Shown here piece after piece: positions 15,932-33,771 of a DNA stretch of 36,508 nt; position 1 is the stretch's first letter; every line of letters begins with the position of its first letter. The stretch is from the NCBI GenBank assembly GCA_934370925.1, contig CAKRNG010000019.1:1-36508 (forward strand), written 5' to 3'. The translations under genes were made by a program, and so were the position numbers. Source of the DNA: an uncultured Lacticaseibacillus sp. GTDB lineage: Bacteria; Bacillota; Bacilli; Lactobacillales; Lactobacillaceae. Under the pieces are notes generated by a model that made no database searches, had not been told where the DNA came from, and saw only the letters and a program-made list of their open reading frames with translations.

Positions 15932-16454
15932 GTTCCCTCGCTTCGCATCGGGGCCGCTGCGTCCGCTGTTTTAGTGGCAACGGTTGATCGGCCCGCCTCG
16001 GTTATTCGAGATCATCTCACCGATACGCGCCCACCTGTATTCCGACTCGGTGGACACGCTGCTCATTGCGGTGCCCGCAATGAGTTAAGGGGCTAGTCGT
16101 CTGCCCGCTTTGCCTGTTTTCGCCACGTCTCGTCGCTGGCTGACGTGGCCCAAATCGAAAAGACACCACTGACAAATTGTTCGTGCGCTAAGTAACAGCG
16201 TTGAGATAGATGAGCACGGTTAAATCCATGTCAAAACTAACTGCGCAATCGGGTGAACCTGATGCTCATGACGGGGCACCCGTCATGAGTTGCGTGTCCA
16301 AGGGGGCGAAATGCCAGTGGGAAGGACTTGGTAACGCCATCCGCGGTTAACGCAAAGGGCCGATCAACCGCTGCCACTAAGCTAGTGGAGGCAGCGCCCC
16401 CGAAGCGATAGCGAGGGACCCCCGTCACTATCCGAAAGCGGCAGCGAGGGAACA
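15932..16454. repeat. Composite dispersed repeat 1 (divergent gap)
   Basis: Left unit 15932-16099 runs from GTTCCCTCGCTTCGC to CTAGTCG, with a TTGC-type palindrome at 16062-16084 and an A-type inner segment. Right unit 16265-16454, inverted, has a TGAC-type palindrome (CTCATGACGGG...) and a B-type inner segment, and carries the extra outer tail CGAAAGCGGCAGCGAGGGAAC. No gene ends here: the permease starts at 15860 and the GNAT gene at 16515, so both tails stop 60-70 nt short of the start codons. 16100-16264 shows no terminator hairpin as clear as in the other copies. Confidence 0.85.
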
Positions 16455-16514
16455 CCGTAACCACAAAAAATGCGGTACAATAGGCGTAACTTTTCTGTAA
16501 ACGGGGCGAAGAAT

Positions 16515-17555
16515 ATGGAACCAACTTACATGCGCCAAGCAACGATGGCGGACTTGGATGAAATTATGACGATTATCGATGGTGCGAAGGCACAACTGGC
16601 CGCTGCCGGGAGTCCGCAGTGGCAGGATGGCTACCCGAATCGTGACACGTTGACGCGTGACCTCGAAGCAGAAGCCGTTGTTGTCCTCATGAGCAACGGC
16701 CGAATTGCGGGCACCGCAAGCCTTATTGTCGGCGTGGAACCGACTTACGCAACGGTTTATGACGGCGAGTGGGCAGCACCCACTGCCGCCTACGCCACGA
16801 TTCACCGTATCGCCATTAGCCGCGACTTCGCAGGTGCACACCTTGGTCGGATTTTCTTCGCCACCATCCTGACACACCTCTACGCACAAGGACTTCGTTG
16901 GGTGCGGCTGGATACGCACCGCCAAAACCGCGCCATGCAACATCTGGCCACCACGTTTGGCTTCAGCCACCGCGGCACCATCCGCATTGACCATGGCGAA
17001 GACCGCGACCGACTGGCTTACGAGGTGAACCTCGGGGACAACGGCACCTTGGTTCGAACCGCCACCGAGGCTGATTTACCCCAAATGCTCGCCATCCTCA
17101 ACGAGGCAAAAGCGCAAATGCTTGCGGGCGGCAACAACCAATGGCTCGGCGATTATCCGAACGCTGCCGTCCTCAACGACGACATTGCACGCGGCGCCGC
17201 CAAAGTTCTGCTCGTCCACGGACAAGTTGCCGGCACCGCTAGCGTCATCGTGGGCATCGACGCCGATTACGCGGGGGGCGATTGGCGCGACGACGTGTCC
17301 CCTTACGCCGCCATCCACCGTGTCGCTATCGCCCGCGCATATGCCGAAAGCCATCTCGGCCGCCTCTTCTTCGACACCCTCATCAGCGACGCGCTGGCAA
17401 CGGGCGTGCACCACTTCCGCATCGACACCAGCGTCCACAACGGCGCCATGCAACACTTGGCCCTCGCGCTAGGGTTCGAAAGCCGCGGCCTCCTCAACAT
17501 CTACCGCGCCCCCAACATGGACACCACCTGGCCCATCTTCGAGCTCGCGCTTTAA
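16515..17555 (+). CDS. Tandem GNAT-domain N-acetyltransferase
   Basis: 346 residues from ATG 16515, with GGGGCGAAG just upstream. The protein is an internal duplication. Domain 1 (about 5-165) has ATMADLDEIM, YATIHRIAISRDFAGAHLG and MQHLATTFGFSHRG; domain 2 (about 180-340) has ATEADLPQML, YAAIHRVAIARAYAESHLG and MQHLALALGFESRG. Each includes the acetyl-CoA-binding V-A-I...G-x-x-L-G-R segment and the C-terminal GF(S/E)xRG. Single-domain relatives are common; two complete copies in one chain are less so. The substrate is unknown. A composite repeat starts 4 nt after the stop. Confidence 0.85.
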   Translation: MEPTYMRQATMADLDEIMTIIDGAKAQLAAAGSPQWQDGYPNRDTLTRDLEAEAVVVLMSNGRIAGTASLIVGVEPTYATVYDGEWAAPTAAYATIHRIAISRDFAGAHLGRIFFATILTHLYAQGLRWVRLDTHRQNRAMQHLATTFGFSHRGTIRIDHGEDRDRLAYEVNLGDNGTLVRTATEADLPQMLAILNEAKAQMLAGGNNQWLGDYPNAAVLNDDIARGAAKVLLVHGQVAGTASVIVGIDADYAGGDWRDDVSPYAAIHRVAIARAYAESHLGRLFFDTLISDALATGVHHFRIDTSVHNGAMQHLALALGFESRGLLNIYRAPNMDTTWPIFELAL

Positions 17556-17559
17556 CGGT

Positions 17560-18071
17560 GTTCCCCCGCTGGCGCTTCGGGTGGTTGCGGTGTTCCCTCG
17601 CTTCGCATCGGGGGCGCTGCGTCCACTGGTTTAATGGCAGCGGTTGATCGGCCCATTGTCCCGACTGCGGATGGCGTTACCAAGTCTCTCCCACTGGCAT
17701 TTCGCCCCCTTGGACACGGCACTCATTGCGGGGTCCCGCAATGAGCTAAAGGGCTAGCCGTCCGCGTTCTCTGCCTGTATTTGCGATGTGTCAACGCTTG
17801 ATCACGTGGCCTGCACCAAACACTCTTAGCGCAACGTAAAAACCGCCACCCAATTTTTGAGTGACGGTTTTATATTGCTTCAATCTATAAACAGTGGAAA
17901 ATGTATTGCCTCAAACTCATGACGGGGCACCCGTCATGAGTAGCGTGTCCACCGAGTCGATATACATGTGGGTAAGAGTCGGTGAGATGATCACCCGAAA
18001 TCGAGGCGGGCCGATCTACCGCTGCCACTAAACTAGCGGACGCAGCGCCCCCGAAGTGATAGCGAGGGAAC
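17560..18071. repeat. Composite dispersed repeat 2 (convergent gap)
   Basis: Left unit 17560-17760 has an extra outer tail, a B-type inner segment and a TTGC-type palindrome (17722-17745) and ends CTAGCCG. The spacer holds a terminator hairpin. Right unit 17916-18071, inverted, has a TGAC-type palindrome (17916-17940) and an A-type inner segment. The tails lie 4 nt after the GNAT stop and 14 nt after the PTS IIA stop, so the composite fills the entire convergent gap. Confidence 0.9.
17838..17872. terminator. Central terminator of composite 2
   Basis: AAAAACCGCCAC and GAGTGACGGTTTT form the stem, T run on both strands. It can end both convergent transcripts. Confidence 0.8.
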
Positions 18072-18085
18072 AACAAGGCCCAAGT

Positions 18086-18412
18086 CTACAACCGACTGTA
18101 GATGAGGTTGTAGAGTGAGACGAATTCGCGCGATGTGTCTAGGATGGCGTTGGCGTCGGTGAGGTGGGTTTCGGCGTGGACAAGGAGGAGGGAGAATTCT
18201 GGACCCTCGCCGCGTGCTTCGAGGCTTAGGAGGTGGTTGTGCGCGAGTTGGCCACCCTTGATGGCGTTTTGCGCGCGGTCAAGCCACTTGGATGCCTGCT
18301 CGAAATCCTGTTCCTTGGCGGCTTCGATGGCGGCCAATGCGGCTTCCCGGGCCGTGGATGTTGCGCTAATGATGTCCATGACGCTACTTGGATTATCTTC
18401 TGGAATGTTCAT
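18086..18412 (-). CDS. PTS lactose/cellobiose-type IIA component
   Basis: 108 residues from ATG 18412, GAGG about seven bases upstream. The all-helical PTS IIA(Lac/Cel) pattern is present: ISATSTAREAALAAIEAAKEQDFEQA, then GGQLAHNHLLSLEARG, then LLLVHAETHLTDA, where the family's phosphorylated His lies in the VHAxxHL segment. It takes a phosphate from HPr and passes it to a IIB. No IIB or IIC is nearby. The gene follows the DEAD-box helicase by 22 nt and seems to share its transcript, so it may be a distant part of a PTS or a regulatory IIA. Confidence 0.85.
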   Translation of the reverse strand: MNIPEDNPSSVMDIISATSTAREAALAAIEAAKEQDFEQASKWLDRAQNAIKGGQLAHNHLLSLEARGEGPEFSLLLVHAETHLTDANAILDTSREFVSLYNLIYSRL

Positions 18413-18433
18413 GTTAAACCTCACTTTTCGCGT

Positions 18434-19792
18434 CTAATCAACGCGCTTTTTGTTCTTTGGCTTGCCCTTGCTCTTCTGGTTGCGCGCCCGGTTCTTCTTG
18501 TGTGGCTTGCGCGCGGATTCATCATCGGCAGGCTTTCCACCAAAGCGGGATTGCCCACCGCGCGCCTTGTCGTCACGCTTAGGGTCGGCACCAGGACGTG
18601 GGCCATTCTTGGAAAAACGGGATGCCTTTTGTCCCCCTGCGTCACGCTTGGTTCGCGGCGCATTCTCAGCTAGCTTCTCGGGGTCGATAACGGGCTTTTC
18701 CGTGCTCAAGCCATCGCTGACCACGTAGGCCCGCTTGATGTCATAGTCACTTGCCAGGTGGCGCAGGTTCCGCAAATCGTGGTCATCCCCCATCGTGATG
18801 ACCAATCCCGGATTCCCCATTCGGCCCGTCCGCCCCGCACGGTGAATGTACGTGGTGGCGTTCCGTGGCACTTCAAAGTTAATCACCGCGGGCAGCTTAG
18901 GAATATCCAGCCCACGTCCGGCCAAATCGGTCACCAGTAGTAATGTGATTTTACCCTTCCGGAACAATGCGAGTGCCTGTTTCCGCGCCATGGACCGGTC
19001 GTTCCGGTCGAGGACGGCGAAGCTCACTTTTTGATGCCGGAGAATCCCAGCAACGCGGGTCAAACTTGTATTCTTATTGAAGAACACGAGCGCCGAGAAC
19101 TTCGGCTGTCGCGCCAACCGTCCCAGCCATTCCACCTGGTGCTCGCGTCCACCCTGCAAGAAGTAATGCTCAACGGGTCCCTGCGTCTTGTCGATTGGCC
19201 GCACGTCAATCACGCGGGCATCGCTGCCGAACCACTTGGACAATTCACGCAAAATTGGGCTACTCGTTGCGGAGAAATAGGTCATCTGCACGTCTGCGGG
19301 GGCATCTTGCACAATCTCGCGCACCTGGTCAAGCCCTGGCTGCCGGAGCAATTCGTCCGCTTCATCCACCACAATGGTCTGGAGGCGGCCCAAACGGACT
19401 TTGCCATCCGAAATCAATTCCAGCAAACGACCCGCTGTTGCCACGATGACTTCGGGGTGCTTCTTCAGTTGTTCCTTCTGCCGTGCCACGTTCGCATTCC
19501 CGGTCACCGCCATAATGCGCACGCCAATCGCCTGTGCGTAGGGGATCAACACGTCGCGTGTCTGGATGGCTAGTTCCTGCGCGGGTGCCAGAATCAGCAG
19601 CTGCAGCCCGTCATCCGGCACAATCTTGGTCAAGAGTGGCAACCCAAACGCAAGGGTCTTCCCTGATCCTGTCGGCGCCAACCCAATAATATTTTCATCC
19701 CGTGCCAGTGGTTCCGCAACCGCCGTCTGAATCGGCGTTTCTTCAGTGAACCCCGCCCGTTCCCAGACCTCAGCGAACTTATCTGCAATCAC
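18434..19792 (-). CDS. DEAD-box RNA helicase
   Basis: 452 residues from GTG 19792 with GGAGG eight bases upstream. The motifs in order are Q-like ETPIQ, motif I APTGSGKT, Ia LAPAQELA (usual PTRELA), II VDEADEL, III SAT, V DLAGRGLDI and VI HRAGRTGRMG. The ~80-residue C-terminal tail is rich in Lys, Arg, Gly and Asn, as in RNA-binding tails of Csh-type helicases. It should unwind structured RNA in ribosome assembly or mRNA decay, often in cold stress. Which paralogue it is cannot be fixed. It is followed by the PTS IIA gene. Confidence 0.93.
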   Translation of the reverse strand: MIADKFAEVWERAGFTEETPIQTAVAEPLARDENIIGLAPTGSGKTLAFGLPLLTKIVPDDGLQLLILAPAQELAIQTRDVLIPYAQAIGVRIMAVTGNANVARQKEQLKKHPEVIVATAGRLLELISDGKVRLGRLQTIVVDEADELLRQPGLDQVREIVQDAPADVQMTYFSATSSPILRELSKWFGSDARVIDVRPIDKTQGPVEHYFLQGGREHQVEWLGRLARQPKFSALVFFNKNTSLTRVAGILRHQKVSFAVLDRNDRSMARKQALALFRKGKITLLLVTDLAGRGLDIPKLPAVINFEVPRNATTYIHRAGRTGRMGNPGLVITMGDDHDLRNLRHLASDYDIKRAYVVSDGLSTEKPVIDPEKLAENAPRTKRDAGGQKASRFSKNGPRPGADPKRDDKARGGQSRFGGKPADDESARKPHKKNRARNQKSKGKPKNKKRVD

Positions 19793-19873
19793 AGCATTTC
19801 CTCCATTTTCGTAACATCTATCTACCCGCCATTATCCCTGTTTTGTGTGCGGGCGGTCAAGTACGGCCTCGTT

Positions 19874-20655
19874 GTTCCCTCGCTGGCGCTTTCGGGAAGT
19901 GACGTTATTCCCTCGCTATCGCTTCGGGGGCGCTGCGTCCGCTAATTTAGTGGCAGCGGTTGATCGGCCCGCCTCGATTTCGGTTGATTATCTCACCGAT
20001 GCTTGCCCACCTGTACTCCGACTCGGTGGACACGCTGCTCATGACGGGTGCCCCGTCATGAGTTTGGGGCAATACATTTTCCACTGTTTATAGGTTGAAG
20101 CAACGTAAAATCGCCACTCAAAAATTGAGTGACGATTTTTACGTTACGCTAAAAATGTTTGGTATCGGCCACGTGATCAAACGTTGCCACATCGCAAATA
20201 CTGGTAAAAAACGCGGACGACTAGCCCTTTAGCTCATTGCGGGTCCCCGCAATGAGTCCCGTGTCCAAGGGGGCGAATTGCCAGCGGGAAGACTTGGTAA
20301 CGCCATGCACAGTCAGGGCAAAGGGCCGATCTGCCGCTGCCACTAAGCTAACGGACGCAGCGCCCCCGATGCGAAGCGAGGGAACAACGTAGCCAAAACA
20401 GTAGGCCACGTAATCAAACGTTGCCACATCGCAAATACAGGCAGAGAACGCGGACGACTAGCCCTTTAGCTCATTGCGGGTCCCCGCAATGAGTCCCGTG
20501 TCCAAGGGGGCGAATTGCCAGTGGAAAGACTTGGTAACGCCATCCACAGTCAGGGCAAAGGGCCGATCTGCCGCTGCCACTAAGCTAACGGCTGCAGCGC
20601 CCCCGATGCGAAGCGAGGGAACCCCGTCACTTCCCGAAAGCGCCAGCGAGGGAAC
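19874..20655. repeat. Composite dispersed repeat 3 with a tandem-duplicated right arm
   Basis: Left unit 19874-20062 has the extra outer tail, an A-type inner segment and a TGAC-type palindrome. The spacer carries a terminator. Two right units follow in the same inverted orientation, 20218-20385 and 20455-20655, both B-type with TTGC-type palindromes (CTCATTGCGGG). They are a direct duplication with a 237 nt period that includes the preceding GGCCACGT segment. The last tail ends 14 nt after the stop of the Gfo/Idh gene. The left tail begins 82 nt from the helicase start codon. This composite has the opposite polarity to composites 1 and 2. Confidence 0.88.
20106..20141. terminator. Central terminator of composite 3
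   Basis: TAAAATCGCCACTCA and TGAGTGACGATTTTTA pair; relative to composites 2 and 4 a C-G pair low in the stem is replaced by T-A, a compensated change. Confidence 0.8.
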
Positions 20656-20669
20656 CCCCTAACTCAACC

Positions 20670-21650
20670 TTAGTCCGCCGCAAAACGGATGCCGGATGCG
20701 GTGCGGACTTGGGTCATGAGGGTGTGGACTTGGGTCGCTAGTAGTAGCTTTTCGTCTCGGGCTGCTGTGTCGTCCGTGTTGATGGCGTTCGCAAAGTACG
20801 CGGCTTCGCGGATCATTGGGTTCGCGTCTTGTTCGCCGGCGAGGTCGACGGTGCTCTCCGCTGTCGTGTAGTCGATGCGCTGGATGCTTTCCGGTGCGTC
20901 AATCGTGAGCGTGTCGCGGCCCGTGTAGATTTCGGATGGGAGGTAACTCTGCGTTGTTTTACCCGTAATCAGGTTGACCGCGTAGTCTGGATAGTCCAGG
21001 TGCAGCACGCCCGAACCATCGATGCCCGTGCGCAGAATCTGTGGGCTGTAGTTGGCCTTTTCCGGCACCCCGAACCAGCTGATGGCCGCGTACACGAGGT
21101 AAACGCCGAGGTCTTCCAGCGCGCCGCCCGCAAACTTGGTGGTGAACACGTTCGGGTCCTTCCCCGCCAAGAACGCATCGTACTTGGACGAATACTTCAT
21201 ATAAGTGAGCGTTGCGCCGCTGATTGGGTGCGTGTGGGTGAACTCGCTGACTTTCTGGAAGTTCGGCTCGTACAGGTGCCGCGCCGCCTCGAAGATGAAT
21301 AGGTCTGGGCGGTCCTTCAACGCCGCTTTAATCGCCGCCATCTGGTTGATGTTGGTCACCATTGGCTTCTCCACGATGACGTGCTTCCCGGCGCGCAATG
21401 CGGCGGCAGCTTGTTCAGCGTGCAGGCTGTTTGGGCTGGCAATGTACACCACATCGAAGGCAGGTGATTGGAAAAAGGTGTCCAGGTCAGTGAACAGTTG
21501 CGCGTCACTGCGCGTCTCGTCCGCAAACTTCTGCGCGGTTTCCTCGCGACGGGAATAAATCGCCGTCAACTCGTATTCACCAGTTTCCCGCGCCGCCGCC
21601 ACAAATTGTGCGGTAATCCAGTTCGTCCCAATAATCGCTAAACGTAACAT
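20670..21650 (-). CDS. Gfo/Idh/MocA family NAD(P)-dependent oxidoreductase
   Basis: 326 residues from ATG 21650, with GGAGG nine bases upstream; an ATG 27 bases earlier overlaps that site and is rejected. The N-terminal Rossmann fold begins LRLAIIGTNWITAQFVAAA, has VVYIASPNSLHAEQA and the family's EKP motif in HVIVEKPMVTN. The C-terminal domain carries GGALEDLGVYLVYAAISWFG. Members oxidise or reduce sugars, inositols or related compounds; the substrate cannot be read from the sequence. Monocistronic; the repeat tail starts 14 nt after its stop. Confidence 0.92.
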   Translation of the reverse strand: MLRLAIIGTNWITAQFVAAARETGEYELTAIYSRREETAQKFADETRSDAQLFTDLDTFFQSPAFDVVYIASPNSLHAEQAAAALRAGKHVIVEKPMVTNINQMAAIKAALKDRPDLFIFEAARHLYEPNFQKVSEFTHTHPISGATLTYMKYSSKYDAFLAGKDPNVFTTKFAGGALEDLGVYLVYAAISWFGVPEKANYSPQILRTGIDGSGVLHLDYPDYAVNLITGKTTQSYLPSEIYTGRDTLTIDAPESIQRIDYTTAESTVDLAGEQDANPMIREAAYFANAINTDDTAARDEKLLLATQVHTLMTQVRTASGIRFAAD

Positions 21651-21986
21651 TTTATATTCCTCCATAATTCGTTTCAATAAGCGTCCATGTCGCCGGTGTC
21701 CTTATTAATTGTAACAGCTTTCATAACAGACTTACCACCTTTCCTGCCAGTTTCGTGGTGGGCAAAAGGAAACAGATGTCCCTTTTTTCGCACCGTTGCT
21801 CGGCTTGCTTCACGTTAGATTCCGTTGCGACTAACCGCCAATCCGCCATTCACAGGTGCCGCAAGCGATATTGGCACTGCCTGACCCAAAATTATTCGCA
21901 TTATTTCATTTAAAAATTCTTATGCTTTCAGAGATGTTTTCGTAACACGTTTCTTATAAAAAAGTCACCAGCATTTTCGTTACAAG

Positions 21987-21995
21987 TGCTATGAT
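21987..21995 (+). promoter_or_regulatory. Extended -10 promoter for the DUF4828-like gene
   Basis: TGCTATGAT fits TGn-TATAAT with one change; no good -35 lies at the right distance. It would give a leader of about 320 nt that contains both copies of the 120 nt tandem repeat. 21651-21986 shows no gene. Confidence 0.45.
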
Positions 21996-22060
21996 GAAAC
22001 TATTAATTAATGAGCGTTTTTTTAGTGAATGTGTGGTGTCGTGATTGCGACGTTGCATGA

Positions 22061-22302
22061 TTCGTAGTCGAGCTTTGCAAAACAGAAGCTTCCGGTTAAC
22101 CCGAAACAATCGCTGGGGAAGTGCACCCCACCGCTTGTTTCACGTTAATCCTCACCTTCTACCCGTTTTGCGCCGCTCTGTTCGTAGTCGAGCTTTGCAA
22201 AACAGAAGCTTCCGGTTAACCCGAAACAATCGCTGGGGAAGTACACCCCACCGCTTGTTTCACGTTAATCCTCACCTTCTACCCGTTTTGCGCCGCTCTG
22301 TT
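22061..22302 (+). repeat. Tandem 120 bp repeat, structured leader
   Basis: 22061-22180 and 22181-22300 are identical except one G/A. Each unit has GTAGTCGAGCTTTGCA, then a hairpin AAACAATCGCTGGGG...CCCCACCGCTTGTTT, then ACCCGTTTTGCGCCGCTCTG. A diverged relative lies at 36407-36508, where the same positions can fold (GGTGGT/ACCACC). Because 120 is a multiple of three, the frame stays open through it, but there is no start with a ribosome-binding site, so I read it as untranslated leader of the following gene. Confidence 0.8.
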
Positions 22303-22320
22303 AATTTAAGGGGGTCCAGC

Positions 22321-22686
22321 ATGGCAAGCAAACTTTCTGCAGCGTTGAATGTATTTTCCAAGAATTTTGGACACAAACATGAACCACAGCCCAATCCAGC
22401 GCTGGCGCTTGCCGACCTCTACCGCGGTGATTTCGCGTTTATGGACAAGACGACCAACCGCCGTCACAGTCTCCGCGTCTCCGCCAAGCTTGACATCTCC
22501 ATCGACGGCAAGCGATTGCCCGGCAAAATTGTCGGCATCACCACCGACGCGCTGACATTTCTTGACCACTTCGGCTACGAACTCATCATCACCTGCATGG
22601 ACGGCCTCCCGACCACCGTCTATGATGAAGCCGAAAACGAAACCTACCCCATCCTCTACCCTGAGTTAGAAGAGGATGACGAGTAA
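22321..22686 (+). CDS. Small acidic protein, DUF4828-like
   Basis: 121 residues from ATG 22321, with GGGGG about seven bases upstream. An earlier in-frame TTG would add the translated tandem repeat and is rejected. The N-terminal ~35 residues are Ala/Lys/Pro-rich; the rest is beta-rich (GDFAFMDKTTNRRHSLRVSAKLDISIDGKRLPGKIVGITTDALTFLDHFGYELIITC) and resembles the DUF4828 proteins of lactic acid bacteria, known to me only as a conserved small family. It ends in PELEEDDE. No role known. The duplicated structured leader suggests post-transcriptional control. A composite repeat starts 4 nt after the stop. Confidence 0.6.
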   Translation: MASKLSAALNVFSKNFGHKHEPQPNPALALADLYRGDFAFMDKTTNRRHSLRVSAKLDISIDGKRLPGKIVGITTDALTFLDHFGYELIITCMDGLPTTVYDEAENETYPILYPELEEDDE

Positions 22687-22969
22687 TGTTGTTCCCTCGC
22701 TGGCGCTCTCGGGAAGTGATGAGGTTCCCTCGCTAACGCTTCGGGGGCGCTGCGGCCGTTAGTTTTGTGGCAGCGGTCGATCGGCCCTTTGACCTGACTG
22801 TGGATGGTGTTACCAAGCCTTTCCCACTGGCAATTCGCCCCCTTGGACACGGAACTCATTGCGGGGTCCCGCAATGAGCTAAAGGGCTAGTCGTCCGCGT
22901 TCTCTGCCTGCATTTACCAAGTATCAACGCTTGATCACGCAGCCTGCACCAAACATTCTTAGCGCAGCA

Positions 22970-23003
22970 TAAAACCGCCACTCATTTTTGAGTGACGGTT
23001 TTA
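22970..23003. terminator. Central terminator of composite 4
   Basis: TAAAACCGCCACTCA pairs with TGAGTGACGGTTTTA around a short T-rich loop. Confidence 0.82.
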
Positions 23004-23109
23004 TGTTGCTTCAATCTATAAACAGTGGAAAATGTATTACCTCAAACTCAGGACGGGGCACCCGTCCTGAGCAGCGTGTCCAATGTGAAGCGAGTGGACA
23101 ACGCGGCCA

Positions 23110-23148: not shown

Positions 23149-23390
23149 GTAAGCGCGAGGCCCAAGTTAGCAAGCGTTGCCACATCGCGAATACAGGCGG
23201 AGATTGCGGATGACTAGCCCCTTAACTCATTGCGGGGCACCCGCAATGAGCTGCGTGTCCACCGAGTCGTTACTCAGGTGGGCTCATGTCGGTGAAATGA
23301 TCGCGCATCACCGAGGCGGGCCGATCAACCGTTGCCACTAAACTAACGGCCGCAGCGCCCCCGATACGTTAGCGAGGGAACACCATAACC

Positions 23391-25019
23391 CTACTTAACG
23401 ACAACATGCGAGTAATTGCGGATGCTGTTGGGGCCGTATTTGAGTCCCTTGACGCTGGTGTTCGTGAGGTGCGCGGTGCCCCATTGGTAAAGAGGAACGA
23501 CGCCCATGTCCTTCGTTAAGGTCTGGTTGGCTTCAAGAAGGTCGGACCAACGTTTTGACACATCTGCGGAATCCGTGGTGTCGGACGCGTTGATGAGTTT
23601 GTCATACGTTGCCGAATTCCAGTTACCCGAGAAGTTTTCCGTTTTGCTTTCGAAGAGGCTCAGGAAGTTGATTGCGTCTGGGAAGTCGGCGACCCAGTTC
23701 CGCAGCATCATGCCGTAATCGAACGAACTGCCCAGTGACAGCCACGTTGCGGTTGGGACGGCCTTGTTCGTAATTTTGACCTTCAGATTGCCCGTTGCCA
23801 ACTTTTCAATCGAATTCTGCAGGTATTCCACCAGGCTCTTGGTCGAATCCTGGTCATTCGAGAGGAGCGTGAAGTCCAGCGTGGTGACGCCTGCTTCTGC
23901 CATCCCCTCCTTGAACAGCTTCTTGGCCTTCGCCAAATCATAGCTCGTGTATGATTCGACGCCCTTCGCAGACTCGGTGCCGAAGTCTTTGCCCGTCTTC
24001 TCGTTGTAGAACATCCCCGTTGGTACCATCGTCTTGGCCACCGTGGACCCATCCCCGAGCACGTTGTTGATGAACGACTTGCGGTTGAGGCACAGCGAAA
24101 TTGCCTGGCGAATCTTCGCGTTCTTGAAGACAGGAACCGCCTTCGTGTTGAACTTCAGGTAGCTGACAGTTGGCTGCTTGACGATGTTGTAATCCTTATT
24201 CCCCTTCGACTGCTGGGCGTAAGTTCCGGTCAGCGAAACATCGTCCAGCTTGCCCGAATTGTACAGGTTCATGGCGGTTGAACTGTCCTTCACGACCTGA
24301 TACTTAATACTCGTGAGGTTCTGGTGCTTCGCGTTCCAGTACGTCGCATTCTTCGTCTCCGTCCACGCGTTGTTCGAACTCGACCAGTTCTTCAACGTGT
24401 ATGGGCCGTTCGAGTGCAGGTACTTGGAGGACGTGGCGTACTTTTTGCCGACCTTCTCCACGTAAGACTTTTCAACCGGGTTAAAGACTGGCAACGTCAG
24501 CATGCTCTCGAAGTACGGCATCACGCGGTCCAGCTTCACGACCAGCGTGTACTTGCCCTTCGCGGTGATGCCCAGCGTGCTGGCGTCCTTCTTGCCAGCG
24601 ATGATGTCATCCGCGTTCTCAATCCCGCTGAAAATGTAGGCGTAGGCGGATTTAGTGGACGGCTTCACGACCCGCTTCCAGGCGTATTCGAAGTCGGACG
24701 CGGTGACTTCTTTACCGTCCGTCCATTTCGCGCCGTGGCGAAGGTGAAACGTGTAGGTTTTCTGATCTTTCGAAACGGTGGCCTTCGCTGTCGCCATATC
24801 GGGCTTGAGTTTACTCCCGTCGTAGCGGAACAAGCCGGCGAACGTATCGGTTTGGATCTGCAGCGAAACAAAGTCAGTGGCCTGCGCCGAATCCATGCTG
24901 GCAATGACATCCGACGCCATCATCTTGATGCTCTGCGTTTTCTTCGCGCTGGCCTTGTTCCCACACGCCCCCAAAACGAGTAGTGATGCGATTCCTAATA
25001 CAAGTGCGCCCTTCTTCAT
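23391..25019 (-). CDS. Oligopeptide-binding lipoprotein, SBP family 5 (OppA-like)
   Basis: 542 residues from ATG 25019 with GGGAGGG upstream; an ATG 30 bases earlier is less well placed. The signal peptide MKKGALVLGIASLLVLGAC ends in the lipobox LGAC (16-19), so Cys19 would be lipidated and the protein anchored outside the membrane. The SBP_bac_5 fold is clear: YTFHLRHGAKWTDGKEVTASDFEYAWKRV, the KIRQAISLCLNRKSFI segment and GMMLRNWVADFPDAINFL. It should capture peptides (or pheromones) for an Opp ABC transporter; no Opp permease or ATPase gene is nearby, so it is an orphan binding protein. Monocistronic. Confidence 0.93.
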   Translation of the reverse strand: MKKGALVLGIASLLVLGACGNKASAKKTQSIKMMASDVIASMDSAQATDFVSLQIQTDTFAGLFRYDGSKLKPDMATAKATVSKDQKTYTFHLRHGAKWTDGKEVTASDFEYAWKRVVKPSTKSAYAYIFSGIENADDIIAGKKDASTLGITAKGKYTLVVKLDRVMPYFESMLTLPVFNPVEKSYVEKVGKKYATSSKYLHSNGPYTLKNWSSSNNAWTETKNATYWNAKHQNLTSIKYQVVKDSSTAMNLYNSGKLDDVSLTGTYAQQSKGNKDYNIVKQPTVSYLKFNTKAVPVFKNAKIRQAISLCLNRKSFINNVLGDGSTVAKTMVPTGMFYNEKTGKDFGTESAKGVESYTSYDLAKAKKLFKEGMAEAGVTTLDFTLLSNDQDSTKSLVEYLQNSIEKLATGNLKVKITNKAVPTATWLSLGSSFDYGMMLRNWVADFPDAINFLSLFESKTENFSGNWNSATYDKLINASDTTDSADVSKRWSDLLEANQTLTKDMGVVPLYQWGTAHLTNTSVKGLKYGPNSIRNYSHVVVK

Positions 25020-25152
25020 AGGCAATCCCTCCCTGATCCATCCACTCACACGCCAAGACGACTAACCCAAACCTTGACCCATGAGCCGCAACGAGCACGG
25101 GTTAATCAAAACAAATGGTAATCTCGTTTCGTTCTAAAAACCCTCTAATTAG

Positions 25153-25505: not shown

Positions 25506-26036
25506 TACCACCATTAAACTAGTGGCAGCAACGCCCCGATGCGTTAGTGAGGGTCCCGCGCCCTTCCTTCTCAAGCACGAAACAAGCCAAAATGTGTCTA
25601 GAAAGGAAGATGGCACATAATTTTCCAAAACAGCTTTAGAAACTCATTGCGGGTGCCCCGCAATGAGCAGCGTGTCCACCGAGCCGAAATACAGGTGGGT
25701 AAGTGTCGGTGAGATGATCAACCGAAACCGAGGCGGCCGATCAACCGTGACCACCAAACAAGAGAGGTTAGCGCCCCCGATGCGTTAGCGAGGAATCACC
25801 GAGGCCAAATAGCAGGCAACGGTAGCGAACGTTGACACAAAGCAAAGACGGAGAGAGCGAGCAACCGACTAGCCCCTTAACTCATGACGGGGTACCCGTC
25901 ATGAGTAGCGTGTCCAAGGGGGCGAAATGCCAGTGGGAAGGACTCGGTAACGCCATCCACAATCAATACGATGGGCCGATCAACCGCTGCCACTAAACTA
26001 ACGGAAGCAGCGCCCCCGATGCGATAGCGAGGGAAC
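25506..26036. repeat. Array of three inverted repeat units (one partial)
   Basis: 25506-25555 holds only the outer tail of a degenerate unit. 25643-25796 is an A-type unit with a TTGC-type palindrome. 25866-26036 is a B-type unit with a TGAC-type palindrome but the ACTAGCCCC flank that elsewhere accompanies TTGC; it is the single exception to that pairing. All three face the same way. The last tail ends 10 nt after the stop of the GH25-like gene. Confidence 0.82.
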
Positions 26037-26046
26037 CCAGTAACTA

Positions 26047-28180: not shown

Positions 28181-28183
28181 TTG

Positions 28184-28653
28184 GTTCCCTCGCTTTGCAT
28201 CGGGGGCGCTGCGTCCGTTAGTTTAGTGGCAGCGGTTGATCGGCCCATCGCATTAATTGTGGATGGTGTTATCGCGTATTTCCCACTGGCATTTCACCCC
28301 CTTGGACACGTTGCTCATTGCGGATGCCCCGCAATGAGTTAAGGAACTAGTCGGTCGCTCAGCCTGCCCTCGTTCAGGATTGATGAACGCTGGCTGACGA
28401 GGCTGGGACCAGTACAACGCAACGAACGTAAAAACCGTCAGCTATTTATGGCTGACGGTTTTTATATTCCTCCATGTTAACCACCGAGAACCCGAAACTC
28501 ATGACGGGGCACCCTTCATGAGCAGCGTGTCCACCGAGTCGGAATACAGGTGGGTAAGTAGCGGTGAGATGATCAGCTGAATTCGAGGTGGGCCGATCCA
28601 CTGTTGCCACTAAACAAACGAATGCAGCGCCGCCGATGCGTTAGCGAGGCATC
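28184..28653. repeat. Composite dispersed repeat 5
   Basis: Left unit 28184-28353 is B-type with a TTGC-type palindrome and ends CTAGTCG. After the central terminator the inverted right unit 28498-28653 is A-type with a TGAC-type palindrome (one arm has CTTCATG, a broken pair). The left tail starts 3 nt after the SPFH stop. The right tail stops 72 nt before the NUDIX start codon. Confidence 0.88.
28429..28464. terminator. Central terminator of composite 5
   Basis: AAAAACCGTCAGC pairs with GCTGACGGTTTTTA. Upper stem CAGC/GCTG replaces CACTCA/TGAGTG of composites 2-4. Confidence 0.82.
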
Positions 28654-28724
28654 CCCGTAAAGGCTTCCATCCGCAACTGTTTTGGGGTACGCTGAATGTA
28701 ACTATTTTCAGGAGGGTACGAAAA

Positions 28725-29189
28725 ATGCCAGATTATATTCACACGGTGCGGAAACTGACGGGACACATTCCACTTATCCTGAACGCTGCGGGCGGGGTTG
28801 TTTTGAATGACCGCCGTGAAGTCCTGTTGCAAGAACGCGCAGATGGTGGTTGGTGCGTTCCTGGGGGCTACCTCGAATTCGGGGAAAACTTCCGCGAAGC
28901 CGTCGTCCGTGAAATGAAGGAAGATGCGGGCCTCGACGTGGTGATTGAACGCAGCATCGGCCTCTTTGACGACCACTACTACATGCACTATCCAAACGGC
29001 GATGTCGTCATGAACATCGCGGAAGGCTTCCTCGTACGACCAGTCGGCGGCTCCTTCGCCGATGCTGCCGCCTGGGAAACCAAGCAACTGAAGTACTTCC
29101 CAATTGACCAGCTGCCACCCATCATTTTCGAACAAAATATCGACATGGTCCTCCGCGTCCACGACCTGCTTCGGGCTGGCGCTATTTAA
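28725..29189 (+). CDS. NUDIX hydrolase
   Basis: 154 residues from ATG 28725, AGGAGGG upstream. The Nudix box is GYLEFGENFREAVVREMKED followed by AGL, which fits GX5EX7REUXEEXGU except that the second Glu of EE is Asp. It is preceded by the usual beta-strand (GGVVLNDRREVLLQERADGGWCVPGG). The enzymes hydrolyse a nucleoside diphosphate linked to another group; the length and GGWxxPGG are typical of small housekeeping forms with unknown substrates. A repeat starts 5 nt after the stop. Confidence 0.93.
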   Translation: MPDYIHTVRKLTGHIPLILNAAGGVVLNDRREVLLQERADGGWCVPGGYLEFGENFREAVVREMKEDAGLDVVIERSIGLFDDHYYMHYPNGDVVMNIAEGFLVRPVGGSFADAAAWETKQLKYFPIDQLPPIIFEQNIDMVLRVHDLLRAGAI

Positions 29190-29194
29190 CGGAA

Positions 29195-29682
29195 GTCCCT
29201 CGCTTCGCATCGGGGGCGCTGCGTCCGCTAGCTTAGTGGTAACGGTTGATCGGCCCGCCTCGATTTTGGTCGATCATCTCACCGCTACTTACCCACCTAC
29301 CTGTATTCCGACTCGGTGGACACGCGACTCATTGCGGGTGCCCCGCAATGAGCTAAGGGGCTAGTCGATTGCTTACTTTGCCTGTATTCACGATTTGGCA
29401 ACGCTAGCTAACGAGGCCATCACCGTTACAGCTTATTGAACCTAAAAACCGCCAGCTATATGTCAGCTGACGGTTTTATATTGTCGTAATTGTCACCATA
29501 AAGTACGAACGGATGAACCTGAAACTACTCATGACGGGGCACCCGTCATGAGTCGCGTGTCCACCGAGTCGTCAGTCAGGTGGCAAAGGTTGGTGAAATG
29601 ATCAACCGTCACTGAGGTGGGTCGATCAACCATAACCACGCCACCAATGTATGCAGCGCCCCCGATGCGAAGCAAGGAAACT
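29195..29682. repeat. Composite dispersed repeat 6 (convergent gap)
   Basis: Left unit 29195-29367 is A-type with a TTGC-type palindrome and a small duplication (CCCACCTACCTGTATTCC). A central terminator follows, then the inverted right unit 29528-29682, A-type with a TGAC-type palindrome. Tails lie 5 nt after the NUDIX stop and 6 nt after the GNAT stop. Confidence 0.88.
29443..29479. terminator. Central terminator of composite 6
   Basis: AAAAACCGCCAGCT pairs with AGCTGACGGTTTT. Confidence 0.82.
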
Positions 29683-29688
29683 CCCTAC

Positions 29689-30201
29689 CTAAAGCACTTT
29701 CCCAAGAATAACTAAATCTTGAAGGGTGCCGGAGAAGGACATGACGGCTGGTAGTTTTCCCCACTGTTCATAACCGAGGTGGGCAAAAAGTGCAAGACTG
29801 ACCGCGTTGGCGCCGATGATGAGGGACGTGATGACGGCGATGTCTGCCTTGGGTGCCTCTTTTTCCGCCCACCGAACTGCCGCTGTGCCAACATGATGAC
29901 CCTGCGCTCCGTGGTCGATGTAGATACTGATTTCGGCGGTGCGATCGTATGCCGCACGCCCCTTGAACTGGGACAAGGAAACCCAACCCACAACTTCACC
30001 GTTCAATTCAGCCACCCACATTGGCCATTTTTTCGGGGTGTGCGCCCAGAACCAATCCTCACGCGCCGCCACCGTCACGGGCGCTGTATCCGCCGTCACT
30101 GTATGGCTCGCAATATTCTGATTATAAATTGCCACAATGCGCGGCAAATCTTCATGTTCTGCAAGCCGAAACGTTACTTCTTCATTCGTTATGGTGCTCA
30201 T
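29689..30201 (-). CDS. GNAT N-acetyltransferase, phosphinothricin-acetyltransferase-like
   Basis: 170 residues from ATG 30201; GAGGGG is very close to the start. The pattern is that of the PAT/MnaT group: FRLAEHEDLPRIVAIYNQNIASHTVTADTAPVT, WPMWVAELNGEVVGWVSLSQFKGRAAYDRTAEISIYID, GHHVGTAAVRWAEK, and IIGANAVSLALFAHLGYEQWG. Such enzymes acetylate small amines or amino acid derivatives such as methionine sulfoximine; the substrate is not certain. It is flanked by composite repeats on both sides. Confidence 0.87.
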   Translation of the reverse strand: MSTITNEEVTFRLAEHEDLPRIVAIYNQNIASHTVTADTAPVTVAAREDWFWAHTPKKWPMWVAELNGEVVGWVSLSQFKGRAAYDRTAEISIYIDHGAQGHHVGTAAVRWAEKEAPKADIAVITSLIIGANAVSLALFAHLGYEQWGKLPAVMSFSGTLQDLVILGKVL

Positions 30202-30291
30202 TCCCCCCTCTAAAAATCCAGAATTTATTCTACCACCTTGTTTGCGGCGACCCTATCCCTTTTGCCAGCTTTTCTTCCAACTGGGTTCGTT

Positions 30292-30463
30292 GTTCCCTCG
30301 CTGTCGCTTCGGGGGGCGCTGCATCCGCTAGCTTAATGGCGACGGTTGATCGGCTCGGCTCGATTTCGGTGGATCATCTCACCGACATTTCCCCACTCGT
30401 ATAACGATTCGGTGGACACGCTGCTCATTGCGGGTGCCCCGCAATGAGTTAAGGGGCTAGTCG
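30292..30463 (+). repeat. Dispersed repeat unit (left arm of a disrupted composite 7)
   Basis: Forward A-type unit from GTTCCCTCGCTGTCGC to CTAGTCG, TTGC-type palindrome. It begins 91 nt from the GNAT start codon. Its partner arm is the truncated unit at 30975-31085; between them lie the micro-ORF element and MITE copy B. 30464-30581 shows nothing further. Confidence 0.85.
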
Positions 30464-30581
30464 GCTACACACTTTACCTGATTTTACTAAGTACTACCGC
30501 TCGCCAACGAAGCCCACCCGTAAATTCATGGTCATTGATTACTGGACAAACAAAATGCGGTCAGTGCGAAATACATAAAAC

Positions 30582-30650
30582 AAAGAAGCCAACATCCTGG
30601 GCGATGTTGGCTTCTTTAATAGGGGGCGTTTCAGTTGGGGGCTGAAACGC
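30582..30650 (+). ncRNA. Two-hairpin leader of micro-ORF, copy B
   Basis: Hairpin 1 (30582-30617) has AGCCAACATC and GATGTTGGCT around CTGGGC; hairpin 2 (30626-30650) has GCGTTTCAG and CTGAAACGC around TTGGGGG. Loops match copy A exactly while stem pairs change together (ACATC/GATGT for ACGTC/GACGT; GTTT/AAAC for GCAT/GTGC). GGAGGAG and the micro-ORF follow. On the minus strand hairpin 1 is followed by TTCTTTGTTTT and could also terminate transcription. Confidence 0.55.
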
Positions 30651-30671
30651 GATTATATTGGAGGAGTAATT

Positions 30672-30722
30672 ATGAAGAAGAAGTTTGAGGATGAGTTCTG
30701 GGTGGCTCATCTCTATGTCTAA
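30672..30722 (+). CDS. 16-residue micro-ORF, copy B of a dispersed element
   Basis: MKKKFEDEFWVAHLYV then TAA, with GGAGGAG at good spacing before ATG 30672. It matches copy A at 11690-11740 except Phe for Leu at position 5 and one synonymous change. The ~55 nt after the stop (TACAATACAG, GTGTGACG, TTGTGA) are also related in the two copies. The MITE-like element begins 88 nt downstream. No known peptide recognised. Confidence 0.5.
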   Translation: MKKKFEDEFWVAHLYV

Positions 30723-30810
30723 TACAATACAGTCGAGGTGTGACGAATTTGTGATGATGTCGCGAGAAGAATGTGGTGTTTTAATTACGAAATAGATAAG
30801 GCGCATATGT

Positions 30811-30974
30811 AGGGGGTGCGCCATAAGTCCAAAGCACACGAACGTCACATCCAGTCGCGCGCCAGAAGACTGCCCCCTAACATACAAAACAGGCCTGGTA
30901 AAAATCCTAAGTTCGGGATTTCCACCAGGCCTGCTTTGTATACCGGGGCCAAACCGTCTTCTGGCGCAGCCTCC
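30811..30974. mobile_element. MITE-like element, copy B
   Basis: About 162 nt shared with copy A (9568-9729), including the inner hairpin ACAAAACAGGCCTGG...CCAGGCCTGCTTTGT. The right terminal repeat CTTCTGGCGCAGCCTC is intact. The left end has drifted (GGGGGTGCGCCATAAG). Its right end joins a dispersed repeat unit exactly where that unit's palindrome should be. Confidence 0.7.
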
Positions 30975-31085
30975 AGCGTGTCCACCGAGTTGAAATACAG
31001 GTGGGCTAATATCGGTGGGATGATCCACCGTCAACGAGGCGGGCCAATCTACCGCAGCCATTAAACAAACATTCGCAGCGCCCCA
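30975..31085 (-). repeat. Truncated dispersed repeat unit fused to MITE copy B
   Basis: Inverted A-type unit beginning at AGCGTGTCCACCGAG; its palindrome is missing and replaced by the MITE-like end, and the outer tail is cut after CAGCGCCCC. It stops 83 nt before the signal peptidase start codon. Confidence 0.8.
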
Positions 31086-31167
31086 CCCCGCCTCCGCTAT
31101 TTAAAATAAAGAACGGTTGTGCTAAATTGAGACTAACATGTGAGAACGCTGGGGGCGACTGGAATTT

Positions 31168-31881
31168 ATGGAAGAATCGATGAAGCGGCCGAGAAAGCCA
31201 AAGAAGAAAACACTTAGTTGGTGGCAGCTCGTTATTTTCGCCGTTGTTGTTTTCCTAGCGACACTGTTCATCATGAATTTCGTCGTCAGCAAAAATTACG
31301 TGACGGGTCCTTCCATGGAACCCGGACTGCACACGGGGGACCACATGCTGGCGTTGCGACACAAGAAGGTTAAGCGGAATGATATCGTGGTTCTCTACGC
31401 ACCCGACGAAGCCTCTTCCGAATACGTCTCAAGTCATCACGTGAAGGCAGAAAATTTGAGCTACGTTGGTAATGGCAAACTTTACAACGGTAGCTCGCTC
31501 GTCCCACTGACCGACCGCGAATTGTACATCAAGCGCGTGATTGGGCTCCCCGGCGATACCATCCGTAGCTATCACGATAAGCTGTACGTGAACGGCAAGC
31601 GTGTGCCGCAGTCGTACTTGACGGCCAGCTTCAGCAAAACCGCCTTGCGTGAACACAATAAAAAATACGACGAAAACGAAAAATATTTCACAAAGGACTT
31701 TTCACTCAAAACACTCGCCGCTACCCGCAGCGTCCGCGTGCCGGCAAACACTTACTTCGTCCTGGGTGACAACCGGGTCGTATCACACGACAGCCGTTCA
31801 TTCGGGTTCCTTCCCGCCGCAAACATCCAGTCCGTTGTCATCCTCCGCTACTGGCCGCTTGGGAAGATTACGACCTACTAG
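31168..31881 (+). CDS. Signal peptidase I
   Basis: 237 residues from ATG 31168 (ATG 31180 is an alternative with GGAAG upstream). A Lys-rich N-terminus and one membrane segment (about 18-40) anchor it. The catalytic Ser is in GPSMEPGL and the catalytic Lys in LYIKRVIGLPGD. The late conserved box is FVLGDNRVVSHDSRSFG. It removes signal peptides from exported proteins on the outer face of the membrane. An extra ~45-residue hydrophilic stretch sits between the two conserved halves (TASFSKTALREHNKKYDENEKYFTKDF region), as in many lactobacillar forms. Monocistronic. Confidence 0.93.
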   Translation: MEESMKRPRKPKKKTLSWWQLVIFAVVVFLATLFIMNFVVSKNYVTGPSMEPGLHTGDHMLALRHKKVKRNDIVVLYAPDEASSEYVSSHHVKAENLSYVGNGKLYNGSSLVPLTDRELYIKRVIGLPGDTIRSYHDKLYVNGKRVPQSYLTASFSKTALREHNKKYDENEKYFTKDFSLKTLAATRSVRVPANTYFVLGDNRVVSHDSRSFGFLPAANIQSVVILRYWPLGKITTY

Positions 31882-31910
31882 TTGGTGACTCATGCGACTA
31901 TTCGTTACGT

Positions 31911-32349
31911 GGTCACGGTTGACCGACCCACCGCATTAATGTTTGCTGTTGTTACCGAGGTTGCCCCACGCCATTTTCGACTCGGTGGACACGCTGCTCA
32001 TGACGGTGCCCCGTCATGAGTGTCTGGTTCATCCGGTTGTCTCTTAACAACTAAGATTGCGGCAACATAAAACCGCCAGCTGAAAAATAGCTGGCGGTTT
32101 TTTACGTTCAGTGAGATGTACGATGCTGGCCGCGTTAGCTAACGTTGCCAAATCGCGAATACAGGCAAAGTAAGCAATCGACTAGCCCCTTAACTCATTG
32201 CGGGGCACCCGCAATGAGCAGCGTGTCCACCGAGTCGAAATACAGGTGGGCAAGTGTCGGTGAGATGATCAGCCGAAATCGAAGTGGGCCGATCAACCGT
32301 AGCCACTAAGCAAACGTCCGCAGCGCCCCCGATGCGATAGCGAGGGAAC
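31911..32349. repeat. Composite dispersed repeat 8 with degenerate left arm
   Basis: Left unit 31911-32020 lacks the outer tail and mixes A- and B-like inner sequence but keeps CTCGGTGGACACGCTG and a TGAC-type palindrome. After the terminator comes the full inverted right unit 32179-32349, A-type with TTGC-type palindrome. Its tail ends 8 nt after the metallophosphatase stop. Polarity is opposite to most other composites. Confidence 0.83.
32069..32104. terminator. Central terminator of composite 8
   Basis: AAAACCGCCAGCT pairs with AGCTGGCGGTTTTTT; the mismatch near the base seen in composites 2-6 (C opposite A) is here a C-G pair. Confidence 0.85.
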
Positions 32350-32357
32350 TCCCCAGC

Positions 32358-33158
32358 CTAGGCACGCGTCTGCAAACGGTCGATCATGCGGCCGGTTTCC
32401 TCATCAAAGACAGCAATGTTCCCCTGATTCTCTGCCAAACCGGAATGAACGCCGCCATCAATGAAGTAACGGGGCATTTCGTCGTCGTAGTGAACGGCAA
32501 GGATGGGACAGTGCGGGAACTTCGACTCGATATAGGTCTCATCGCCATCATAGCGTCCTTTGATGAGCCCGGTCGGTGTATGCCCCGTCACCAGCGTGTA
32601 ATCGAATGGGTTGTGGGCAAAAATAGGCTCCGAACGATCACTACGGTAAATGTAATCCTCCCGAATCCAAATCCGGTCCATCGCACTCGTGTCACGCAGA
32701 GGGTCGGCTTTGCTGAGGTCGAGGCCTGCGTGAATGAAAAACAATTTACCGTACACACAAATCGTGGATAGACCCGCGATGAATGTTGCCACATCCTGAT
32801 AACGATCAATCATAATGTGCCGACTTTCATCACTCTCTGGTGGCAACTTTTCCCCCGTCGCAGCCGTAACCATCGCCATCGTGGTCTCATCCCCGCCATT
32901 CATAAACCAAGCGTCCTGATTCGATTCATCCTGCAGGTAGTCGAGCAACATCTGATCATGATTGCCTAATATTGCATAGGCGCGCCCATCCGCAACCTGC
33001 CGCATAATCGTCCGCAACACCTCTGCCGCATGTGGGTGACCATCAATGTAGTCACCGCAAAAAACGGTCACTGCATCCGGATACTTCGCCTGCATCCGTC
33101 GCAAGTGCCCGAGAACGGTCATGCTCCCATGAATATCCGAAACTGCAATGACTGTCAT
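32358..33158 (-). CDS. PPP-type metallophosphoesterase / protein phosphatase-like
   Basis: 266 residues from ATG 33158, GGGGG about six bases upstream. The metal-binding motifs are in order: VSDIHGS (about 7-13), FCGDYIDGH, LGNHDQM, FFIHAGLD and VTGHTPTG, so the two-metal site is complete. This matches the PPP-type phosphatase/ApaH-like group, which removes phosphate from proteins or splits dinucleoside polyphosphates; the length fits bacterial members. The substrate is unresolved. Monocistronic, repeat-flanked on both sides. Confidence 0.9.
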   Translation of the reverse strand: MTVIAVSDIHGSMTVLGHLRRMQAKYPDAVTVFCGDYIDGHPHAAEVLRTIMRQVADGRAYAILGNHDQMLLDYLQDESNQDAWFMNGGDETTMAMVTAATGEKLPPESDESRHIMIDRYQDVATFIAGLSTICVYGKLFFIHAGLDLSKADPLRDTSAMDRIWIREDYIYRSDRSEPIFAHNPFDYTLVTGHTPTGLIKGRYDGDETYIESKFPHCPILAVHYDDEMPRYFIDGGVHSGLAENQGNIAVFDEETGRMIDRLQTRA

Positions 33159-33223
33159 CTTCTACCCCCTACTCAATAGCTCTATGTTACCACGTTGTTT
33201 GTGGAAGCGCTATTTATCTATAA

Positions 33224-33771
33224 CCTTGCTGGCGCTTTCGGGAAGGTACGGTGTTCCCTCGCTTCGCATCGGGGGGCGCTGCATACGTGGGTGTAGTGGC
33301 TACGGTCGATCGGCCCACCTCGCTTACGAACAATCATCTCACCGACACGCCCCCACCCGTATTCCGACTCGGTGGACACGCGACTCAATGCGGGGCCCCG
33401 CATTGAGCTAAGGGGCTAGTCGGCCACTCGCTCTGCCTGATTTCGCCAACTACTTCCGCTAGATTAACGAGGCCTAAATGCAAGTCAACTCCACTACCAA
33501 TCGTCTATCAATAACCGTCACAACGATACGATTAGCCGAGCACGATTACATCCATGTTAAATCTAACGAAGCAATCGGGTGACCCCCTTGCTCATGACGG
33601 GACACCCGTCATGAGTTCCGTGTCCACCGAGTCGAAATACAGGTGGCCAAATATCGGTGAGATGATCAACCGAAATCGAGGTGGGCCGATCAACCGTGAC
33701 CACTACACCAACATCCGCAGCGCCCCCGAAGCGATAGCGAGGGACCACCGTGGCCTACTGAAAGCGCCAGC
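33224..33771. repeat. Composite dispersed repeat 9 (last in the window)
   Basis: Left unit 33224-33422, with the extra outer tail, is A-type; its palindrome is TCAATGCGGGGC...GCATTGA, a fourth stem variant that stays fully paired. Inverted right unit 33591-33771 is A-type with a TGAC-type palindrome and a shortened extra tail. Its inner flank (CATGTTAAATCTAACG...CAATCGGGTGA) resembles that of the right unit of composite 1. The left tail is 66 nt from the phosphatase start codon. 33423-33590 has no clear central terminator. Confidence 0.86.

Follow-up and report, generated by a model that had tools for sequence, protein, structure and literature searches.

Repetitive extragenic palindromes (REPs) are, in the portions of the literature drawn on here, sequences of 20–40 nt with a GTAG-like tag (PMC3733652, PMC2817692). 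The same excerpts record palindromes with complementary changes, intergenic mosaics and tandem duplicates (PMC2817692, PMC3116915), and REPs that can cluster near their own transposase (PMC2817692). The BOX, RUP and SPRITE repeats of Streptococcus pneumoniae are described, again in a partial account, as mosaic (boxA/B/C), terminator-like and over-represented between convergent genes (PMC3049150); this source portrays bacterial miniature inverted-repeat transposable elements (MITEs) as short and AT-rich, with target duplications and the ends of a parental insertion sequence (PMC3049150). Here we describe a repeat family on contig CAKRNG010000019.1 of an uncultured Lacticaseibacillus sp. (assembly GCA_934370925.1), the whole 36,508-nt stretch of which is referred to as the window. 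Its 23 units lie between genes, for the most part in inverted pairs. With confidence and doubt about evenly balanced, we consider them a non-autonomous mosaic mobile family similar to bacterial interspersed mosaic elements (BIMEs) and BOX, with a central hairpin that, by prediction, terminates transcription of the genes on either side.

Units, modules and inverted pairs

Units were located with a sequence-only profile without structure (R1; cut-off E≤0.001), built from 19 full units of the window. R1 gave 23 matches between positions 15933 and 33745 (Table 1), comprising four partial units and 19 full-length ones (spans of about 154–159 nt), the recovery of the latter being by construction. 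The weakest accepted match is the partial unit 25507–25553 (E 5.4e-4), and the next in rank (E 0.009, 16248–16291) is a palindrome read in reverse. An iterated nhmmer search seeded by one unit returned the identical 23 places, together with palindrome-only matches on the opposite strand. No R1 match at this cut-off is present in the first 15.9 kb or the last 2.7 kb of the window, and the left edge of the repeat stretch at 15.9 kb is abrupt. The initial annotation, made from the sequence alone, had reported about 23 units, some partial, between 15.9 and 33.8 kb and repeat-free sequence on both sides, and these statements are confirmed. Pairwise identity among the 19 full units averages 77% (range 64–97%), and their G+C content is 55–63%.

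Each unit, about 158 nt long, runs from a tail GTTCCCTCGCT through the blocks TCGGGGGCGCTGC and GATCGGCCC, an inner segment and TGGACACG to a palindrome CTCA...TGAG, which has the form CTCANNN(C)GGG..CCC(G)NNNTGAG and lacks a GTAG-type foot. This tail-to-palindrome order had been recognised in the initial annotation, but the single layout proposed there has to be replaced by two types of inner segment, X, to which GTGGACACG belongs, and Y, to which TTGGACACG belongs. An extra outer copy of the tail (~33 nt) is carried by 7 of the 19 full units, being partial in two of these (33253 and 33589). Of the 19, 12 possess a conserved extension of ~70 nt (GGGGCTAGTCG...). Since all four two-way combinations occur among these units for each of the three module pairs (inner X/Y, palindrome A/B, extension present/absent), the family is a mosaic. 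Three matches between copies in different gaps extend through both arm and core (17689–18074 vs 19904–20289, 386 nt, 90%, inverted; 17853 vs 22984, 99 nt, 95%; 29296 vs 32120, 131 nt, 92%, inverted). No concerted evolution was seen within pairs: over the outer 66 columns, own-pair comparisons gave 0.840 (six pairs) and comparisons with other pairs 0.832.

Nine inverted pairs with tails outward account for 18 of the 23 units, and the paired units make up composites of roughly 460–530 nt. Of the remaining five, 20467 is a direct duplicate, 23223 an additional unit in reverse orientation, and 25508, 25641 and 25878 form an array that shares one orientation. A terminator-like core hairpin of the general form AAAAYCGYCA...TGRCGRTTTT (z −3.3 to −9.5) is enclosed by six of the nine pairs, all of them pairs into which a gene directly ends. 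The earlier description of units paired around a terminator applies, as to the pairing, to 18 of the 23 units and, as to the terminator, to these six pairs. The core fold is absent (z 0.6 and 0.9) from both uninterrupted pairs without a direct gene end, namely 15932–16420, in a divergent gap, and 33253–33746, where a terminator-like hairpin belonging to GT4 separates gene and repeat. The ninth pair (30292/30974), also in a divergent gap, is interrupted by another element. Among the inverted pairs, the eight with both palindromes preserved all combine one A-like with one B-like palindrome. The array pair 25641/25878 does so as well, with the two exchanged with respect to the extension, and units 20230 and 20467, related by duplication, both carry palindrome A; shared ancestry may explain the A/B pairing within pairs.

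The palindrome stem consists of standard pairs in 99.0% of 208 cells (91.8% in shuffles), and two-sided changes occupy 15 cells (5.3 in shuffles), located in three pairs and mostly representing one block change. One sense frame is nearly stop-free (2 stops in 684 codons vs 16–35 in the other five frames), but a protein-coding repeat was rejected: changes in X units at codon positions 1/2/3 (0.181/0.192/0.209) reveal no clear codon-position bias and no third-position excess. Three unit translations had no Pfam match, and among gene-caller-reported open reading frames (ORFs) a profile made from the translations of eight units retrieved a single database protein, the window's own ORF running from the GH25 end into unit 25878, on three contigs (the longest of 52,232 bases). 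The result of a rate-heterogeneity test for even spread varied with the way in which changes were counted.

Table 1. Repeat units and core hairpins in the window (X/Y, inner segment type; A/B, palindrome; ext., conserved extension)
Position	Strand	Feature	Basis
15932..16087	+	full unit, X, A, ext. to ~16165; divergent gap AI-2E/GNATx2	R1
16264..16420	-	full unit, Y, B; extended tail to 16461	R1
17592..17748	+	full unit, Y, A, ext.; extended tail from 17557, 1 nt past GNATx2 stop	R1
17833..17877		core terminator-like hairpin of composite 17592-18071	fold
17914..18071	-	full unit, X, B; convergent gap GNATx2/PTS_IIA	R1
19907..20064	+	full unit, X, B; extended tail from 19873; gap DEAD/GFO	R1
20101..20145		core terminator-like hairpin	fold + generic terminator scan
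20230..20385	-	full unit, Y, A, ext.	R1
20467..20622	-	direct duplicate of unit 20230 (95% over 224 nt); extended tail to 20663	R1
22724..22881	+	full unit, Y, A, ext.; extended tail from 22690; convergent gap DUF4828/SBP5	R1
22964..23008		core terminator-like hairpin	fold + generic terminator scan
23045..23106	-	partial unit: palindrome CTCAGGAC...GTCCTGAG plus TTGGACACG	R1
23223..23381	-	full unit, X, A, ext.	R1
25507..25553	-	partial unit, tail only	R1
25641..25796	-	full unit, X, A, no ext.	R1
25878..26036	-	full unit, Y, B, ext.; adjoins GH25 stop	R1
28184..28341	+	full unit, Y, A, ext.; adjoins Band7 stop	R1
28425..28469		core terminator-like hairpin	fold
28496..28652	-	full unit, X, B	R1
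29194..29355	+	full unit, X, A, ext.; convergent gap Nudix/GNAT2	R1
29439..29483		core terminator-like hairpin	fold + generic terminator scan
29527..29680	-	full unit, X, B	R1
30292..30451	+	full unit, X, A, ext.; divergent gap GNAT2/SPase	R1
30974..31084	-	partial unit, cut at GTGTCCACC, beside second repeat family	R1
31893..32021	+	tailless partial unit with hybrid inner segment, B; convergent gap SPase/MPE	R1
32062..32110		core terminator-like hairpin	fold
32191..32349	-	full unit, X, A, ext.	R1
33253..33410	+	full unit, X, palindrome CTCAATGC...GCATTGAG, ext.; partial extended tail from 33222; gap MPE/GT4	R1
33589..33746	-	full unit, X, B; partial extended tail to 33773	R1

Gene ends and the orthologous gaps of relatives

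Gaps were mapped from our own gene calls, with hand-chosen start codons for AI-2E, PTS_IIA, SBP5 and others. Between AI-2E and GT4, units are present in 10 of 14 gaps (4/4 convergent, 4/6 tandem and 2/4 divergent); the initial claim that the family fills the intergenic regions therefore holds for these ten, but not for the other four. No units were found at 11 other mapped junctions of the window (two are ORF overlaps; tnpA, 13453–13917, was recognised afterwards). With the extended tail counted where present, 11 of the 12 gene 3′ ends that face a unit lie 0–14 nt from it, the sole distant one being that of GT4 (70 nt). Gene 5′ ends facing a unit are located at 53–88 nt in seven of eight cases and at 487 nt in that of SBP5. 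The 11 close stops include TAG, TAA and TGA, and show no preference for a particular stop codon as target. Integron attC sites are likewise palindromic and directly follow the stops of successive genes. Unlike these, the composites also occupy divergent gaps, and the genes of the window lie in both orientations, in an order largely shared with relatives.

The helicase encoded in the window is 78% identical (best segment) to those of Lacticaseibacillus sharpeae and L. hulanensis, the signal peptidase is 68% identical to that of L. sharpeae, and several neighbouring genes occur in the same order in these relatives, the gene order of the block being largely shared. Judging from such similarities, the repeats probably lie in ordinary chromosomal sequence of a Lacticaseibacillus species. 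RF3, to the left of the repeats, shares its strand with the helicase in two relatives, where the two genes are ~29 kb apart, which places the left part within the same broad region.

A search of 30 genomes of the genus with R1, made like the two that follow without a positive-control genome, gave a single match (E 5.5e-4), chance-like and, by eye, within a coding region. None was obtained in 397 genomes of the family or 395 of the order, both searched with stricter filters. BLAST of one composite against the seven nearest genomes produced matches only at E≥0.30, and one 761-nt composite had no plasmid or phage match. In viral contigs, a 19-base pattern occurred at nine loci, none reaching R1 E≤0.001 (best L017, E 0.007), and two further patterns at none. 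Rfam contained no family for the units, the one sub-threshold match (mir-BART19, 27 of 100 bits) being outside them; this check had been proposed in the initial annotation, and the repeat is accordingly not a known Rfam family. Within the open-licence literature searched (subscription papers were outside the scope), no such repeat family was reported in Lactobacillaceae. As far as the genomes searched extend, the family is likely to be lineage-specific.

The other check proposed there concerned orthologous gaps. Ten such gaps without a visible intervening gene, representing 4 of the 10 occupied gaps, contain no copy according to R1 and gap inspection: GFO/DEAD in L002–L005 and L097, Nudix/GNAT2 in L003 and L006, Band7/Nudix in L003 and L097, and SPase/MPE in L002. 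The count leaves out GFO/DEAD in L001, where 1 kb of other sequence is present, and gaps in which other genes apparently intervene (Nudix/GNAT2 in L001 and L097, Band7/Nudix in L001, SPase/MPE in L096). Comparable convergent gaps of relatives measure 81 (L002), 91 (L003) and 250 nt (L006), a few end codons included, and by eye contain terminator-like hairpins. After subtraction of the composites, 3–19 nt of spacer remain at the four convergent gaps of the window. In the SPase/MPE gap of L. hulanensis there is a hairpin similar-looking to the core, and in L. sharpeae another gene is apparently located in this gap; the core may or may not represent the ancestral SPase/MPE terminator.

Two genes, GNATx2 (16515–17555) and SBP5 (23391–25020), have repeat units on both flanks. 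GNATx2 has no match at the corresponding position in L002, and SBP5 none in L001 and L002; the flanking repeats may mark gene gains.

Relation to described repeats and possible origin

The initial annotation had compared the architecture with that of the BIMEs of enteric bacteria. This likeness stands as far as architecture is concerned: the units are inverted, palindrome-bearing and confined to intergenic regions, the inverted orientation of BIME mosaics recurs in the nine pairs together with module exchange, and the complementary palindrome changes and tandem duplicates have counterparts in the portions of the REP and REPIN literature cited. Membership in these groups does not follow, however, since the footless ~158-nt unit differs from the 20–40 nt with a GTAG-like foot given in those excerpts, the large composites have a core hairpin and outward tails, no REP-associated tyrosine transposase (RAYT), the enzyme that moves the REP doublets called REPINs, was found in the window, and the host, as a Firmicute, differs from the species of the REP accounts cited. 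The BOX, RUP and SPRITE elements, compared by their partial description, share with this family a Firmicute host, mosaic modules, terminator-like character and convergent gaps, whereas the inverted doublets, long arms, central hairpin and density within 18 kb set the latter apart.

The copies, pairing, module exchange, conserved stem, closeness to stop codons and absence from comparable orthologous gaps are direct observations, and they are best accommodated by the non-autonomous mosaic mobile family put forward above. An enzyme encoded elsewhere would have recognised the conserved ends, the palindrome or both, and would have inserted composites without a detectable target duplication. Insertions would have survived only between genes, and homologous exchange among copies would have shuffled inner segments, palindromes and cores. 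At composites into which a gene ran, termination would have passed to the core hairpin, with loss of the native spacer and terminator, so that a unit now abuts the stop. The terminator role of the core hairpins is a prediction from their sequence, and it is probable that they replaced native terminators. More tentatively, and on balance doubtfully, the mobile repeat might have taken over the intergenic architecture as a whole: bidirectional terminator composites would have replaced native 3′ ends gene after gene, and one family would set the transcript boundaries of an 18-kb block. If the interpretation is correct, the long-standing question of whether a selfish repeat can turn into the terminator of host genes would become testable, and the examined relatives, which lack the repeat, permit a before/after comparison of 3′ ends. 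The density, with a single repeat in most gaps and next to most stop codons facing a unit, is notable.

Several findings weigh against a mobile family of this kind. In 14 end-pair trials no target-site duplication was detected, the longest shared flank words being 2–6 nt at inconsistent offsets. A simple insertion leaves the sites unexplained: given the 3–19 nt that remain in the window and the 81, 91 and 250 nt of relatives, loss or replacement of the native spacer has to be added. GH25 runs directly into the coreless array 25508–26036, with a terminator-like hairpin beyond the array, and the generic terminator scan reports only three of the six core hairpins. The association of core hairpins with gene ends (6/6 vs 0/2) is small, was noticed post hoc and is suggestive only. 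Palindrome pair types do not exceed those of shuffles (3 vs 3.0), so few independent compensatory events are proven. Furthermore, no transposase with matching ends was found in the window, and the sole one recognised belongs to an IS200/IS605 element (12134–13917) in R1-free sequence ~2 kb left of the first unit, with tnpB (RNA-guided nuclease family) on the minus strand and divergent tnpA on the plus strand. For IS200/IS605 the score of this TnpA is 141.8 bits (cut-off 55), and for RAYT it is 45.3 (cut-off 80). An IS605-type element was rejected as the parent, there being no R1 match in or beside it.

The rival that survives best, although we consider it unlikely, regards the units as host-maintained boundary modules, i.e. 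hairpins of 3′ untranslated regions or bidirectional terminators under selection, which insulate genes, spread by recombination and are not (or no longer) transposons. Such modules would be expected where they are found, in every convergent gap, close to 11 of 12 facing stops and with core hairpins in the six pairs that receive a gene end, and selection would be consistent with units that are mostly full-length (19/23) where the spacer is gone. The composites in two divergent gaps, where no gene ends, fit poorly with this view, the direct duplicate and the truncated copies resemble the debris of mobile elements, no fold is conserved outside the palindrome, and the conservation of blocks could equally be due to transposase sites.

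Less probable still is a classical MITE with long terminal inverted repeats (~160 nt within ~460–530 nt), derived from one DDE insertion sequence of the host genome. Short size within the MITE range, inverted ends, an apparently non-coding sequence, the lack of a transposase and composites in both relative orientations all agree with this origin. However, target duplications were not found, and the G+C content contrasts with the AT-richness given for MITEs in the account cited. Nor are the arms uniform: lone units, the direct array and the A/B swap indicate modules not locked as two termini, and of six full-length pairs that were compared, four have arms of different inner type.

It is very improbable that the units are a multi-copy family of structured RNAs or riboregulators transcribed together with the genes beside them. 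The two-sided changes in the palindromic stem speak for such a family, but template switching can also keep palindromes perfect, and Rfam offers no match. Structured RNA beyond the palindrome was rejected, since, with the palindrome removed, the unit showed no better fold than alignments with shuffled columns (z +0.2 to −1.9). An assembly artefact or chimaera, to which the abrupt boundary at 15.9 kb might point, is scarcely credible, given that copies differ at 3–36% of positions and lie between different genes in an order largely shared with relatives, and that the ORF from GH25 into unit 25878 occurs on three contigs, though these possibly derive from one sample and one is possibly the window itself.

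Neighbouring repeats and small features

A second repeat family occurs at 9560–9740 and 30850–30975 as a long hairpin, of 27 bp in the piece that was folded, with a fixed loop region AATCCCGAACTTAGGATT and a stem that varies strongly yet remains paired. The partial unit 30974–31084 ends at its edge (30960–30985), the second family occupying the place of palindrome and core. With up to two mismatches, the loop pattern AATCCCGAACTTAGGATT was found in 14 of the 30 genus genomes, with as many as 48 (G006), 33 (G009) and 27 (G027) copies, and the reversed control gave one match in total. No Rfam family reached the gathering score for this repeat. Several of the fetched copies of the loop pattern (L067, L068, L069 and L077 among them) do not adopt this fold, and may be chance matches or decayed.

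Upstream of GFO there is a 120-nt tandem duplication with TAGTCGAGCTTTGCAAAACAG (22061–22300), an echo of which lies upstream of BrkB (36404–36469). Ahead of the GFO gene of L. hulanensis there is a tandem pair particular to that species, which contains GAGCTCGACTA (L002, 8314–8411). These upstream repeats are perhaps a shared operator. Finally, a 16-codon ORF (30672–30722), preceded by what by eye is a good ribosome-binding site, follows two hairpins in the GNAT2/SPase gap.

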